In this document: positions 368-40,447 of the stretch, one piece after another
How the letters are laid out: the number at the start of each line of letters is the position of its first letter
Numbering within the stretch: position 1 is the stretch's first letter
From: Eubacteriales bacterium
GTDB taxonomy: Bacteria; Bacillota; Clostridia; Oscillospirales; Oscillospiraceae
Length of the DNA stretch: 54,326 nt
Reading direction: 5' to 3'
Assembly (NCBI GenBank): GCA_030533415.1
Contig: JAUNJE010000013.1
Coordinates: 1 to 54,326 of the forward strand
Translations under genes and position numbers: made by a program
Notes under the pieces: model-generated
The model's input: only the letters and a program-made list of their open reading frames with translations
The model's database searches: none
What the model was told of the DNA's origin: nothing

Positions 368-391
368 GCCGCCGCCAGAAATGGCGGCGGC
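368..391 (+). terminator. rplL terminator hairpin (proximal copy)
   Basis: A 10-bp GC stem (368-377 with 382-391) closes a GAAA loop just after rplL. It is not followed by a T run. A nearly identical hairpin (22 of 24 bases) recurs at 937-960, where a T-rich tract does follow. This looks like a duplicated terminator with the U-tract left at the distal copy. Confidence 0.75.
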
Positions 392-523
392 TCTGATTGG
401 CAAGATTCAGAGCGGTTCATCAATTTCAGCTATCGAGTCTCTATTTGACATTGTCAGAAAAACAACTGTGTTTGCAAAGGTTTTGTTTACTCTCACACCA
501 TGGTGAAGGAGAAAATGAAAGAG

Positions 524-844
524 ATGAAGAAGCGTACAGTTTATAATAAACTTGTCCGTGACAAAATCCCTGAAATCGTCGAAGCCTCAGGCAACACTTG
601 TGTAACAGAGATTCTGTCTTATGATGCTTACATCCGGGCACTAGACAACAAGTTAAATGAGGAGCTGGCCGAGTACCTGCAGAGTAAATCCCTGGAGGAA
701 CTGGCAGACCTTCTGGAAGTCATGGACGCTGTTGTCAAAGCTAGGGGCTATACTTGGGATGATTTGACCCGTGTTCGCAAAGAAAAACGTGTTCACCGAG
801 GTGGATTCGACAAACGAATCTTCCTTAAGGAAGTAATTGAATAG
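524..844 (+). CDS. MazG-like all-alpha NTP pyrophosphohydrolase
   Basis: The protein has about 106 residues, starts MKKRTVYNKLVRDKIPEIVE and carries the acidic pairs of the all-alpha NTP-PPase fold (NEELAEYL, then EELADLLEVMDAV), consistent with Mg-dependent removal of pyrophosphate from non-canonical nucleotides. It resembles the small stand-alone house-cleaning group (COG4997-like). ATG 524 is preferred because homologues start close to NKLVRDKIP and the AAGGAG at 506-511 serves it; ATG 515 or 500 would add a few residues. The gene is more AT-rich than rplL and sits alone between two near-identical terminator hairpins, together with a remnant of the dispersed element, so it may be an acquired gene. 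The substrate is unknown. Confidence 0.8.
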   Translation: MKKRTVYNKLVRDKIPEIVEASGNTCVTEILSYDAYIRALDNKLNEELAEYLQSKSLEELADLLEVMDAVVKARGYTWDDLTRVRKEKRVHRGGFDKRIFLKEVIE

Positions 845-860
845 CAACCACCAACTGCGA

Positions 861-935
861 TCCATTTGGACGCAGTTCATTGCACCAAAGCTTCCCTTGT
901 GCGCTATAAGCACCAGTGGATTTATCGACTGTCTG
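861..935. mobile_element. Internally deleted remnant of the dispersed terminator-associated element
   Basis: The stretch 875-901 (CATTGCACCAAAGCTTCCC onward) matches the same interval of the copy at 40165-40426 almost base for base. Bases 901-935 then match the end of that copy, finishing in TTTATCGACTGTCTG, the terminal repeat. The middle of the element is missing and the other end is not recognisable. The remnant abuts the second rplL-type terminator hairpin. Confidence 0.75.
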
Positions 936-936
936 C

Positions 937-969
937 GCCGCCGCCAAAAATAGCGGCGGCTTTCTCTTT
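937..969 (+). terminator. Distal copy of the rplL terminator
   Basis: The stem GCCGCCGC (937-944) pairs with 953-960, followed by a T-rich tract (TTTCTCTTT, 961-969). It matches the hairpin at 368-391 at 22 of 24 positions. Bases 970-1181 up to the next start codon show nothing further that I can name. Confidence 0.75.
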
Positions 970-2104: not shown

Positions 2105-2127
2105 GTCCTCCGCAAATGCGGAGGGCT
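2105..2127 (+). terminator. Terminator hairpin, left copy of a 23-bp direct repeat
   Basis: CCTCCGCAAATGCGGAGG forms an 8-bp stem nine bases after the membrane-protein gene. The 23 bases 2105-2127 recur exactly at 2383-2405, on the other side of the element. This left copy is followed by the element end CAGATTGTCG instead of a T run. Confidence 0.8.
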
Positions 2128-2382
2128 CAGATTGTCGATAACCCCTCTGGCGCGGGAGCGCCCAAGGCTCCCTTGTGCAAAGGGAGCTGTCACGCGAGCA
2201 GCGTGACTGAGGGATTGACGCGGTAAAATGTTTCCTTTTCGCCGAAGTCCAATGCGAATTCGTAACATTCAGCTGCACAATCCCTCCGAGGCGGCTTGCG
2301 CCGCCCCACCTCCCTTTGCACAAGGGAGGCTTTGGTGCAGTGCAAATTGGTTACGTTTGAAATTACTTTTTCGACACTCTGC
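2128..2382. mobile_element. Dispersed terminator-associated element, copy A (intact)
   Basis: This is a 255-bp non-coding repeat. Its ends are imperfect inverted repeats: left CAGATTGTCGATAA, right (reverse complement) CAGAGTGTCGAAAA. Inside are two arms that are themselves inverted copies: CTCCCTTGTGCAAAGGGAG near 2168-2186 against CTCCCTTTGCACAAGGGAG near 2311-2329, and GAGGGATTG against CAATCCCTC. The single strand could fold into a long branched hairpin. Related copies lie at 22145, 37815 and 40165, with a remnant at 861. The element is bracketed by an exact 23-bp direct repeat that is the local terminator stem. No transposase is present, so it would have to be mobilised in trans if it is mobile. 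Confidence 0.85.
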
Positions 2383-2405
2383 GTCCTCCGCAAATGCGGA
2401 GGGCT
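2383..2405 (+). terminator. Terminator hairpin, right copy of the 23-bp direct repeat
   Basis: Identical to 2105-2127. It is followed by a T-containing tract (TTCCATTTTT), so it looks like the functional end of the original terminator. Confidence 0.8.
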
Positions 2406-22097: not shown

Positions 22098-22122
22098 ACA
22101 CATCTATTTTGTGATGCAAAAA

Positions 22123-22143
22123 CAGGAGGCTGCAAGCCTCCTG
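22123..22143 (+). terminator. Hairpin between the HAD gene and element copy B
   Basis: CAGGAGGC and GCCTCCTG pair around TGCAA. No T run follows; the element end begins two bases later. The hairpin at 22436-22454 is related (GGCTGCA and AGCCTC shared) but not identical, so this pair looks like an aged duplication. Confidence 0.6.
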
Positions 22144-22144
22144 T

Positions 22145-22429
22145 CAGGCTGTCGATAAACCCTCTGGCGCGGGAGCGCCCAAGGCTCCCTTGTGCAAAGG
22201 GAGCTGTCACGCGAGCAGCGTGACTGAGGGATTGACGCGGTAAAATGTTTCCTTTTCGCCGAAGTCTAATGCAAATTCGTAACATTCCACTGCACAATCC
22301 CTCCGAGGCGGCTTGCGCCGCCCCACCTCAGCGCAAGGCACTCCCTTCGGTCGCCTTTGCACAAGGGAGGCTTTGGTGCAATGCAAATTGGTAAACTTCT
22401 ACGTTTGAAATTACTCTTTCGACACTCTG
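22145..22429. mobile_element. Dispersed terminator-associated element, copy B
   Basis: A 285-bp copy in the same orientation as copy A. Ends: CAGGCTGTCGATAAAC on the left and TTTCGACACTCTG on the right. It carries about 25 extra bases in the right arm (around 22330-22355), which copy C carries inverted in its left arm. It is non-coding. Confidence 0.85.
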
Positions 22430-22435
22430 AAAAAA

Positions 22436-22460
22436 GGGGCTGCACTGCAGCCTCTTTTTT
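22436..22460 (+). terminator. Terminator with T run right of element copy B
   Basis: The stem (22436-22442 with 22448-22454, one G-U pair) is preceded by AAAAAA and followed by TTTTTT, so it could act in both directions: for the HAD gene from the left and the broken radical SAM gene from the right. Confidence 0.75.
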
Positions 22461-26590: not shown

Positions 26591-26897
26591 ACGACCGGCT
26601 CATAACAAGATCGCACACCCACATTTGAACGGGCTGCGCATCCGAACCTTAGCAGTTAGCTCAAGAACGGCAACCTCGCGGCACACGGGAAGGTCCGCTT
26701 AATGCTGCTTGGTTCCCCACCTGACATGGTTCACGGGATCCCGTTGCGCAAGACCAATCTCTCAACACCACTTACGCAGGTCAGACAATACGCAAGACTC
26801 GTCCGGGTGTGGGAATTCATCCCTGCTGTAGCGGATTGCAGGTACAGGGCACCGCTATCTCCCCGACTAGTGCGACCTTGTTATAAGCCGGTCGGCC
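26591..26897 (-). ncRNA. ffs: Signal recognition particle RNA, large bacterial type
   Basis: Read on the minus strand, the Alu domain motif GGGGAGATAGCGGTGCCCTG and its partner region CCTGCAATCCGC are followed by the S domain ACCATGTCAGGTGG-GGAA-CCAAGCAGC. The apical stem is TGG/CCA where most bacteria have TCC/GGA, a compensated change keeping the GGAA loop. The ends pair over 24 continuous base pairs (26870-26893 with 26593-26616, two G-U). T's follow at 26590-26586. Exact mature ends are uncertain; the end helix may be trimmed by RNase III. The RNA assembles with Ffh to target membrane proteins. Confidence 0.93.
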
Positions 26898-37814: not shown

Positions 37815-38072
37815 AGCGCGCCAAAGGCTCCCTTGTGCAAAGGCGACCGAAGAGAGTGCCTTGCGCTGAGCTGTCACGCGAGCAGCGTGACTGAGGGATT
37901 GTCGCGGTAAAATGTTGCCTTTTTGCCGAAGTCCAATGCGAATTCGTAACGTTTCACTGCACAATCCCTCCGAGGCGGCTTGCGCCGCCCCACCTCCCTT
38001 TGCACAAGGGAGGCTTTGGTGCGGTGCAAATTGGTAAACTTCTACGTTTGAACTTACTTTTTCGACACTCTG
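37815..38072. mobile_element. Dispersed terminator-associated element, copy C (left end lost)
   Basis: The right end TTTTTCGACACTCTG is intact and abuts a terminator hairpin, but the left terminal repeat and first about 20 bases are absent, and no matching hairpin is seen on the left. The left arm holds about 25 extra bases (near 37842-37867), the inverted counterpart of the insert in the right arm of copy B. The wider gap 37672-38120 contains only this element, the padR promoter and the hairpin. Confidence 0.8.
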
Positions 38073-38073
38073 C

Positions 38074-38098
38074 GGCGGCAGCATATTCTGCTACCGCC
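38074..38098 (-). terminator. Terminator of the GntR-ABC operon
   Basis: On the minus strand GGCGGTAGCA (38098-38089) pairs with TGCTGCCGCC (38083-38074), loop GAATA. The element end CAGAGTGTCG follows directly, so there is no adjacent T run. Confidence 0.65.
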
Positions 38099-40143: not shown

Positions 40144-40164
40144 AGGCGGAGGCACGCCTCCGCC
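40144..40164. terminator. Hairpin, distal copy of a 21-bp direct repeat
   Basis: GGCGGAGGC and GCCTCCGCC form a 9-bp stem. Bases 40144-40164 recur exactly at 40427-40447 on the other side of element copy D. Confidence 0.8.
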
Positions 40165-40426
40165 GCAGAGTGTCGAAAAAGTAAGTTGAAACGTAGAAGT
40201 TTACCAATTTGCATTGCACCAAAGCCTCCCTTGTGCAAAGGGAGGTGGGGCGGCGTAAGCCGCCTCGGAGGGATTGTGCAGTGGAATGTTACGAATTCGC
40301 ATTGGACTTCGGCGAAAAGGAAACATTTTACCGCGACAATCCCTCAGTCACGCTGCTCGCGTGACAGCTCCCTTTGCACAAGGGAGCCTTGGGCGCTCCC
40401 GCGCCAGAGGGTTTATCGACAGTCTG
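40165..40426. mobile_element. Dispersed terminator-associated element, copy D (intact)
   Basis: 262 bp, inverted relative to copies A and B on the plus strand. Ends: CAGAGTGTCGAAAAAG at the left and TTTATCGACAGTCTG at the right, mutual imperfect inverted repeats. Internal arms CTCCCTTGTGCAAAGGGAG and CTCCCTTTGCACAAGGGAG are both present. It is enclosed by an exact 21-bp direct repeat that is the terminator stem of the XRE operon. Relative to the upstream gene its orientation equals that of copies A and B. Confidence 0.87.
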
Positions 40427-40447
40427 AGGCGGAGGCACGCCTCCGCC
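40427..40447 (-). terminator. Terminator hairpin of the XRE operon, proximal copy
   Basis: Identical to 40144-40164. It lies 14 bases past the stop of the small gene at 40462 on the minus strand and is followed there by the element end CAGACTGTCG. Confidence 0.75.

Follow-up and report, generated by a model that had tools for sequence, protein, structure and literature searches.

The window, meaning the whole 54,326-nucleotide stretch of DNA analyzed here, is contig C10 of a 2.72-Mb genome of 80 contigs that is 88% complete. The repeats within it were found to be copies of a non-coding element of 254-310 bp, a MITE with the terminal inverted repeats CAGACTGTCGATAAACCC and CAGAGTGTCGAAAAAGTA, and its end motif occurs eight times in the window at up to two mismatches, against 0.21 occurrences expected. 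Because copies of this length are too short for a transposase, the element is a derivative and not an IS in its own right. The copies in the window and the hairpins beside them are presented in Table 1.

Table 1. Element copies and adjoining hairpins in the window.
Feature	Position	Strand	Observation
rplL locus, proximal hairpin, directly after rplL	368..391	+	inside a 29-nt, 90% repeat
545-bp element at rplL	392..936	+	right end recognizable (921-935), left end decayed
rplL locus, distal hairpin, then T-rich tract	937..960	+	inside the 29-nt, 90% repeat
Copy A, proximal hairpin	2105..2127	+	exact 23-bp direct repeat with 2383-2405; 22-nt hairpin
MITE copy A	2128..2382	+	terminal inverted repeats; aligns to about 30 genome copies
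Copy A, distal hairpin, then T-rich tract	2383..2405	+	exact 23-bp repeat
Hairpin left of copy B	22122..22144	+	match with the hairpin on the right does not exceed the null
MITE copy B, long form (L017)	22145..22429	+	86% identity to copy A; length 285
Hairpin and T-tract to the right of copy B	22430..22460	+	differs from the left hairpin
MITE copy, left-truncated	37868..38073	+	right end 38058-38072
Imperfect hairpin directly right of the left-truncated copy	38073..38098	+	sequence, by eye
Hairpin left of copy D	40144..40164	+	exact 21-bp direct repeat, sequence unlike that of copy A
MITE copy D	40165..40426	-	94% identity to copy A over 255 nt
Hairpin right of copy D	40427..40447	+	exact 21-bp direct repeat

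The exact and mutually different repeats described for copies A and D in the original prediction were confirmed, as was the match of 22 of 24 bases at rplL, where the 24 bases sit in a longer repeat of 29 nt at 90% identity (364-392 versus 933-961). The last base of copy A (2382) is ambiguous and could be assigned to either element or repeat. A T-rich tract had been described after the distal stem in three cases, and this holds for the rplL locus and for copies A and B; beyond the distal stem of copy D no clear T-tract is seen. The related, decayed pair proposed for copy B could not be established, as its two hairpins are different and their flank match of 9 does not exceed what mismatched pairs reach (scores of up to 10), so that copy B is not countable as a duplication. 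The left-truncated copy has a hairpin on its right side only. The 545-bp element at rplL contains an open reading frame of 114 aa (500-844), possibly a passenger gene, which gave no match in Pfam or the PDB and two sub-threshold matches in NCBIfam (14 and 12.7 bits against cut-offs of 40 and 271.5). That the MITE is a known RNA family was rejected, the Rfam analysis of the window having found SRP RNA only. This bacterial large SRP RNA lies at 26611-26875 on the minus strand (198 bits).

A search of the genome with copy A identified approximately 30 substantial copies of the MITE, shorter matches being tested at contig ends only. From 32 loci examined, five lacking one end were dropped, and for each of the 27 closed copies with both ends the 40 nt to the left were aligned with the 40 nt to the right, using 702 mismatched left/right pairs as the null. 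A locus-specific hairpin of 21-32 bp was common to both flanks in 21 of the 27 closed copies, with flank scores of 12-32, while the best of the 702 mismatched pairs scored 10. These hairpins vary from copy to copy of the element in a single genome. Copies lacking locus-matched stems, which would count against the original prediction, were the other six (L007, L009, L015, L017, which is copy B, L020 and L026); some of these have two different hairpins, an arrangement that recombination between copies would produce. Contig ends gave a second view of the same pattern: among 15 ends lying inside the element, 14 formed seven reciprocal best pairs by hairpin alone, each pairing one left end with one right end, with scores of 20-27 compared to a next best score of at most 8 among the ends and at most 11 against closed loci. 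The start of contig C9 was without partner. A chance origin of the flank repeats was ruled out by the flank swapping (702 pairs) together with the random-segment control described below. With respect to empty sites of the MITE itself, the gene lying downstream of copy A was used as query against 136 genus genomes, and the best congener was only 74% identical at this one flanking gene and so too diverged for an empty-site comparison.

To find candidate autonomous relatives, 61 genus genomes were searched for the DUF772 transposase domain. Full-length elements in congeners were flanked by a perfect 25-bp hairpin repeat (L080) and by a perfect 64-bp hairpin repeat that is itself a perfect palindrome (L076); a third element, with ends closest to those of the MITE (L069), has a hairpin repeat of 25 bp containing a single mismatch. 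All four congener transposases tested scored above the cut-off of NF033551, the NCBIfam IS1182 model (307.8-388.6 bits versus 270); no related solved structure was found in the PDB at E 0.01. The genome of the window also carries an IS1182 relic, a C-terminal transposase fragment (G000:C48:13648-13848) within an internally deleted element which has the ends CAGACCGTCGAGGAACCCC and CAGAGTGTCGAAAAGTCC and lies between the two copies of a 34-bp hairpin repeat (one mismatch). The end type of the MITE and the IS1182 family are therefore found together in one genome, and CAGnnTGTCGA-like ends are common to the MITE, this relic and L069. The link to IS1182, originally a guess, thus holds: the element is short, lacks a transposase, is present in about 30 copies and has its ends in common with an IS. 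No intact autonomous IS1182 partner was found in the 88% complete genome, and the MITE was presumably mobilized in trans by an IS1182-family transposase with CAGnnTGTnnAnAA-type ends, judging from the terminal sequences.

Relatives were then collected from a database in which 84,980 species are represented by one genome each. Of 497 relatives the best 80 were taken, a sample leaning to close relatives, and these came from Oscillospiraceae and other Clostridia, including Claveliimonas, Acetobacterium and Chakrabartyella, and from a Chloroflexota MAG. Usable ends and flanks were present in 62 of these 80 loci, with flanks too short in five and no end pair in 13; 55 loci passed a stricter end filter and 41 of the 55 had repeats of 19-64 bp. 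The combined samples comprised 106 entries, which were reduced to 95 distinct CAG-type sites after dropping identical flank pairs, tolerating at most one substitution in the end motif and counting a direct repeat at a score of at least 12. Direct repeats were observed at 65 of the 95 distinct sites and spanned 17-64 bp in 23 different lengths. The repeat abuts the element on both sides in 64 of the 65, and the outermost pair of the hairpin lies 0 or 1 nt from the repeat ends in 62. When stem starts up to 4 nt inside the repeat were tolerated, 62 of the 65 repeats folded end to end as one hairpin (at least six net pairs), compared to 19 of 650 random segments of the same length. In six multi-copy genomes, with two or three sampled copies each, all 17 copies (14 with CAG ends and three in genome G472 with GAG ends) were seen by eye to have their own hairpin duplicated. 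No hairpin duplication was seen by eye in the flanks from 13 other multi-copy genomes, which apart from G680 have other end types.

Most of these sites lie just beyond genes. A frame of at least 100 aa stops within 150 nt of the hairpin at 54 of 60 sites (the 62 loci with usable ends and flanks, minus two whose flanks were short for this analysis), with a median distance of 19.5 nt; the control, taken in one direction only, gave 47 of 300. At 10 of the 60 some frame is open for more than 300 nt on both sides. The orientation of T and A tracts was scored at 41 sites, with T only at 12, A only at 7, both at 14 and neither at 8 (P 0.36, a weak test).

Empty sites were available for full-length elements on plasmids. 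ISEfa7, an IS1182-family element of Enterococcus, has CAG-type ends like the elements above and, unlike the MITE of the window, is full-length with a transposase. Hairpin repeats of 20, 25 and 20 bp flank it at the E. faecium sites L269, L275 and L304, where L275 is annotated only as a transposase and has the same length and ends as L269. Other ISEfa7 records were found on measurement to have no repeat (L270, L271, L274 and L305), and the right end was not found in L303 and L307; L274, L303, L305 and L307 represent one site, and L270 and L304 share a right flank. The copy with the 25-bp repeat (L275) is carried by the Enterococcus plasmid pELF_AA94, and 34 other records match its left flank through the hairpin and then stop. 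Three of the 34 were inspected. For an empty site with a single hairpin a sequence of 400 bp was predicted, and pELF_AA55 contains it without any difference, whereas the version with two hairpins is absent, and the other two inspected records fit one hairpin better than two (390 versus 362 and 336 versus 308). In E. raffinosus, an element related to ISEfa7 (L306) has a 21-bp hairpin repeat in the filled plasmid and a single hairpin is found in the empty plasmid pF162_2_1. The hairpin was therefore duplicated upon insertion at these two IS sites. Empty sites already carrying two stems would have spoken against the original prediction, in which the hairpins were duplicated target and not part of the element; the IS-free plasmids carry one, and with the locus-matched hairpins of the 21 closed MITE copies this part of the prediction stands. 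Searches for empty sites of L269 and L273 returned their own record only, and L309 and L310, examined as possible empty sites of L304, both still contain an IS end.

The target duplication of a DDE transposase is usually a fixed short stagger between the two points of strand transfer and serves as a fingerprint of the enzyme. In the present elements the repeat coincides with the hairpin across many different lengths and sequences, and its ends are symmetric about the stem, so that the simplest account is a folded-out hairpin as target. The transposase would bind an extruded hairpin or cruciform, in which the two 5' feet of the stem are close together, and would join the two 3' ends of the element to these feet on both strands; gap repair would then copy the whole stem-loop on each side of the element. 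The target and not a fixed stagger would thereby set the length of the duplication, over the range of 17-64 bp. We consider it likely that the MITE is mobilized by an IS1182 DDE transposase acting on CAGnnTGTnnAnAA-type ends, and that a whole terminator-like hairpin, most probably read as an extruded hairpin or cruciform, is duplicated as the target. The repeats, their agreement with single hairpins, the empty sites with one hairpin at two IS insertions and the IS1182 identity of the autonomous relatives are direct observations; within this account we infer cruciform recognition and attack at the 5' feet, the points of attack being deduced from the positions of the repeat ends. The U-tract remains with the distal hairpin, so termination should survive the insertion. 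The original prediction had placed insertion between stem and U-tract; this fits the layout but simply follows from the stem being duplicated, which leaves the original copy indistinguishable. It had also proposed a targeting system specific for terminators. Terminator-like hairpins are indeed the target, but the feature read is probably the hairpin itself, because the duplicated sequences vary by site and the ends of the repeat are the ends of the hairpin.

A DNA cruciform and a hairpin on one strand are not separated by the present data. It is possible, if rather unlikely, that the target is a single-strand hairpin exposed at a replication fork or behind RNA polymerase: the targets are terminator-like, where transcription pauses, and 54 of the 60 sites lie just after a reading frame, but the repeat ends are symmetric about the stem and the tracts show no significant bias in orientation (12 versus 7 of 41), which in so weak a test fits a symmetric target. 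We regard as improbable an attachment of the transposase to the termination machinery, such as paused RNA polymerase or NusA, with the hairpin as a by-product. The majority of sites are terminator-like, as this would require, yet it fails to explain why the duplication is the whole hairpin over a wide range of lengths, including the perfect 64-bp palindrome, and IS1272, another IS1182-family element, is reported in the available portions of two papers to insert also into inverted repeats within coding regions (PMC5678879, PMC4923244). If the hairpins were part of the element, or if gene conversion kept them alike, the presence of one at both ends of most copies would be accounted for; this reading is very improbable, since the hairpins vary among copies in the same genome and the one-hairpin empty sites at two insertions rule it out. 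Least credible of all is an ordinary staggered cut with a long fixed duplication beside terminators and coincidental hairpins. Long duplications are known from some other IS families (27 bp in IS1202), but here 23 repeat lengths were observed and the outermost pair keeps to within 1 nt of the repeat ends in 62 of 65 sites.

The preferred reading, duplication of a folded-out hairpin, can be set against what is published for IS1272. According to the parts available of Furi et al. 2016 (PMC4923244) and Wan et al. 2017 (PMC5678879), IS1272/TnSha1 shows no sequence preference, inserts at stem-loops that in many cases are terminators, often just after genes, and deletes the stem-loop wholly or in part with no target duplication. 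IS1272 and the CAG-type elements thus belong to the same family and share a stem-loop target, but IS1272 removes the hairpin whereas CAG-type elements duplicate the whole of it. Replacement of the IS1272 kind, with the hairpin lost and nothing duplicated, does not describe our elements: 21 of 27 MITE copies and 65 of 95 IS sites have the hairpin at each flank, and the two empty sites have one. Duplication of a whole stem-loop at both ends, as found here for the MITE and the CAG-type IS, was drawn by Wan et al. as a hypothetical pathway b (Fig 13), and not for IS1272, in the part of that paper available (PMC5678879).

In a tree of 101 transposases, L298, which lies beside fabI as in TnSha1, was taken as IS1272; it has GAGTCTGGGACATAAA-type ends and fell together with the other long elements having GGGGCTGT/GAGTCTG-type ends in a clade of 13 (support 0.995). 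Hairpin duplication was found at none of the 13 tips of this clade, compared to 63 of 85 in the clade containing the CAG-type elements (support 0.985); the tips include some repeats of the same site, and L096, for which an odd reading frame was used, lies outside both clades. For GGGG-type elements 26 copies, several per genome, were given and the ends of 25 were found. A predominates in their left flanks (5.8 of 8) and T in their right flanks (5.2 of 8), and the two flanks of one copy resemble each other in inverted form more than flanks taken from different copies do, a result matched by 2 of 2000 permutations. These flanks and the published behavior of IS1272 suggest that the stem may have been removed from G-type sites and the A and T tracts left behind. 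A bolder reading is evenly balanced in our judgment: one entire clade within the IS1182 transposases would consist of cruciform-reading integrases that cut the 5' feet of a hairpin of any sequence, so that the target dictates the length of the duplication, while the sister IS1272 clade would attack the 3' feet and delete the structure.

No locus-matched repeat was observed at 30 of the 95 IS sites and in 6 of the 27 MITE copies. Among the 30 IS sites, L258 and L304 have misplaced element boundaries and do possess a repeat, L067 and L081 resemble chance matches to the ends, and L226 comes from another clade. At other sites the hairpins on the two sides are not the same, and in genome AP018533 the right hairpin of L120 is the left hairpin of L133. 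Such an arrangement is what recombination between copies would leave. One MITE copy (L009) has a decayed end. Another MITE copy (L007) and one IS (L151) have an 8-bp repeat and no hairpin, from which it follows that a hairpin is not strictly required; this repeat may be the plain stagger of the enzyme on ordinary DNA. The elements of genome G680 have CAG ends yet no hairpin repeat, and their tip in the tree pairs weakly (support 0.339) with L302. Conversely, the GAG-type ends of G472 are accompanied by hairpin repeats in three of three copies, and L190-L192, which have GGGGCTGTTGACAA ends, lie inside the CAG clade and are without hairpin repeats. The end sequence alone consequently does not predict the outcome. 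L302 is an alphaproteobacterial IS1182 element on a Komagataeibacter plasmid with CAGCCTGTCGGG ends, and its flanks show an apparent 4-bp CTAG duplication within a short palindrome.

Targeting of stem-loops by the IS1182 family is already known from IS1272, and the available parts of the two IS1272 papers cite Siguier et al., in a review, as stating that some IS1182 members target palindromes (PMC4923244, PMC5678879). MITEs attributed to an IS1182-family IS, like the element of the window, are described for ISMac2 of Methanosarcina (PMC3852290); the portion of that report available tabulates repeat lengths of 26 and 4 bp and of 25 and 0 bp, inverted and direct in an uncertain column order, and mentions no hairpin target, unlike what is seen for the MITE here. 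The IS1202 family also consists of site-directed DDE IS, but from the available text these are directed to Xer (pdif/dif) sites and not to hairpins of any sequence (PMC10132070). No report of whole-hairpin target duplication in nature was found in the literature searched, the scope of which lay outside ISfinder, TnPedia and most subscription papers. The new part is therefore whole-hairpin duplication in genomes, and with it a pathway drawn as a hypothesis in 2017 has now been seen. The duplication is the target structure itself, at 17-64 bp, in Clostridia, in plasmids of Enterococcus and Sutcliffiella and in a Chloroflexota MAG, and one family offers a clean contrast between hairpins duplicated and hairpins deleted. 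Insertion at hairpins suggests how such elements can become numerous while doing genes little harm, and the CAG-type transposases are natural enzymes that may read DNA shape.

Further observations concern the MITE copies themselves. In L014 and L029 the paired hairpins differ by eye through an inversion of the loop (GGAA/TTCC and CATAG/CTATG, respectively) with the stem kept, which suggests that the loop was inverted during or after insertion. Another repeat, whose hairpins are TTTATAAAGAAAC and GGCACCGCCTGACGGC-like, adjoins the MITE copies L015, L020, L022 and L023 and the end of contig C16, and may serve as a target for them. DNA similar to the MITE is held by 42 of the 61 genus genomes, that of the window included. 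Many of these matches cover only a core (copy A positions approximately 31-92 and 150-211), a distribution consistent with the MITE having perhaps captured an older repeat.
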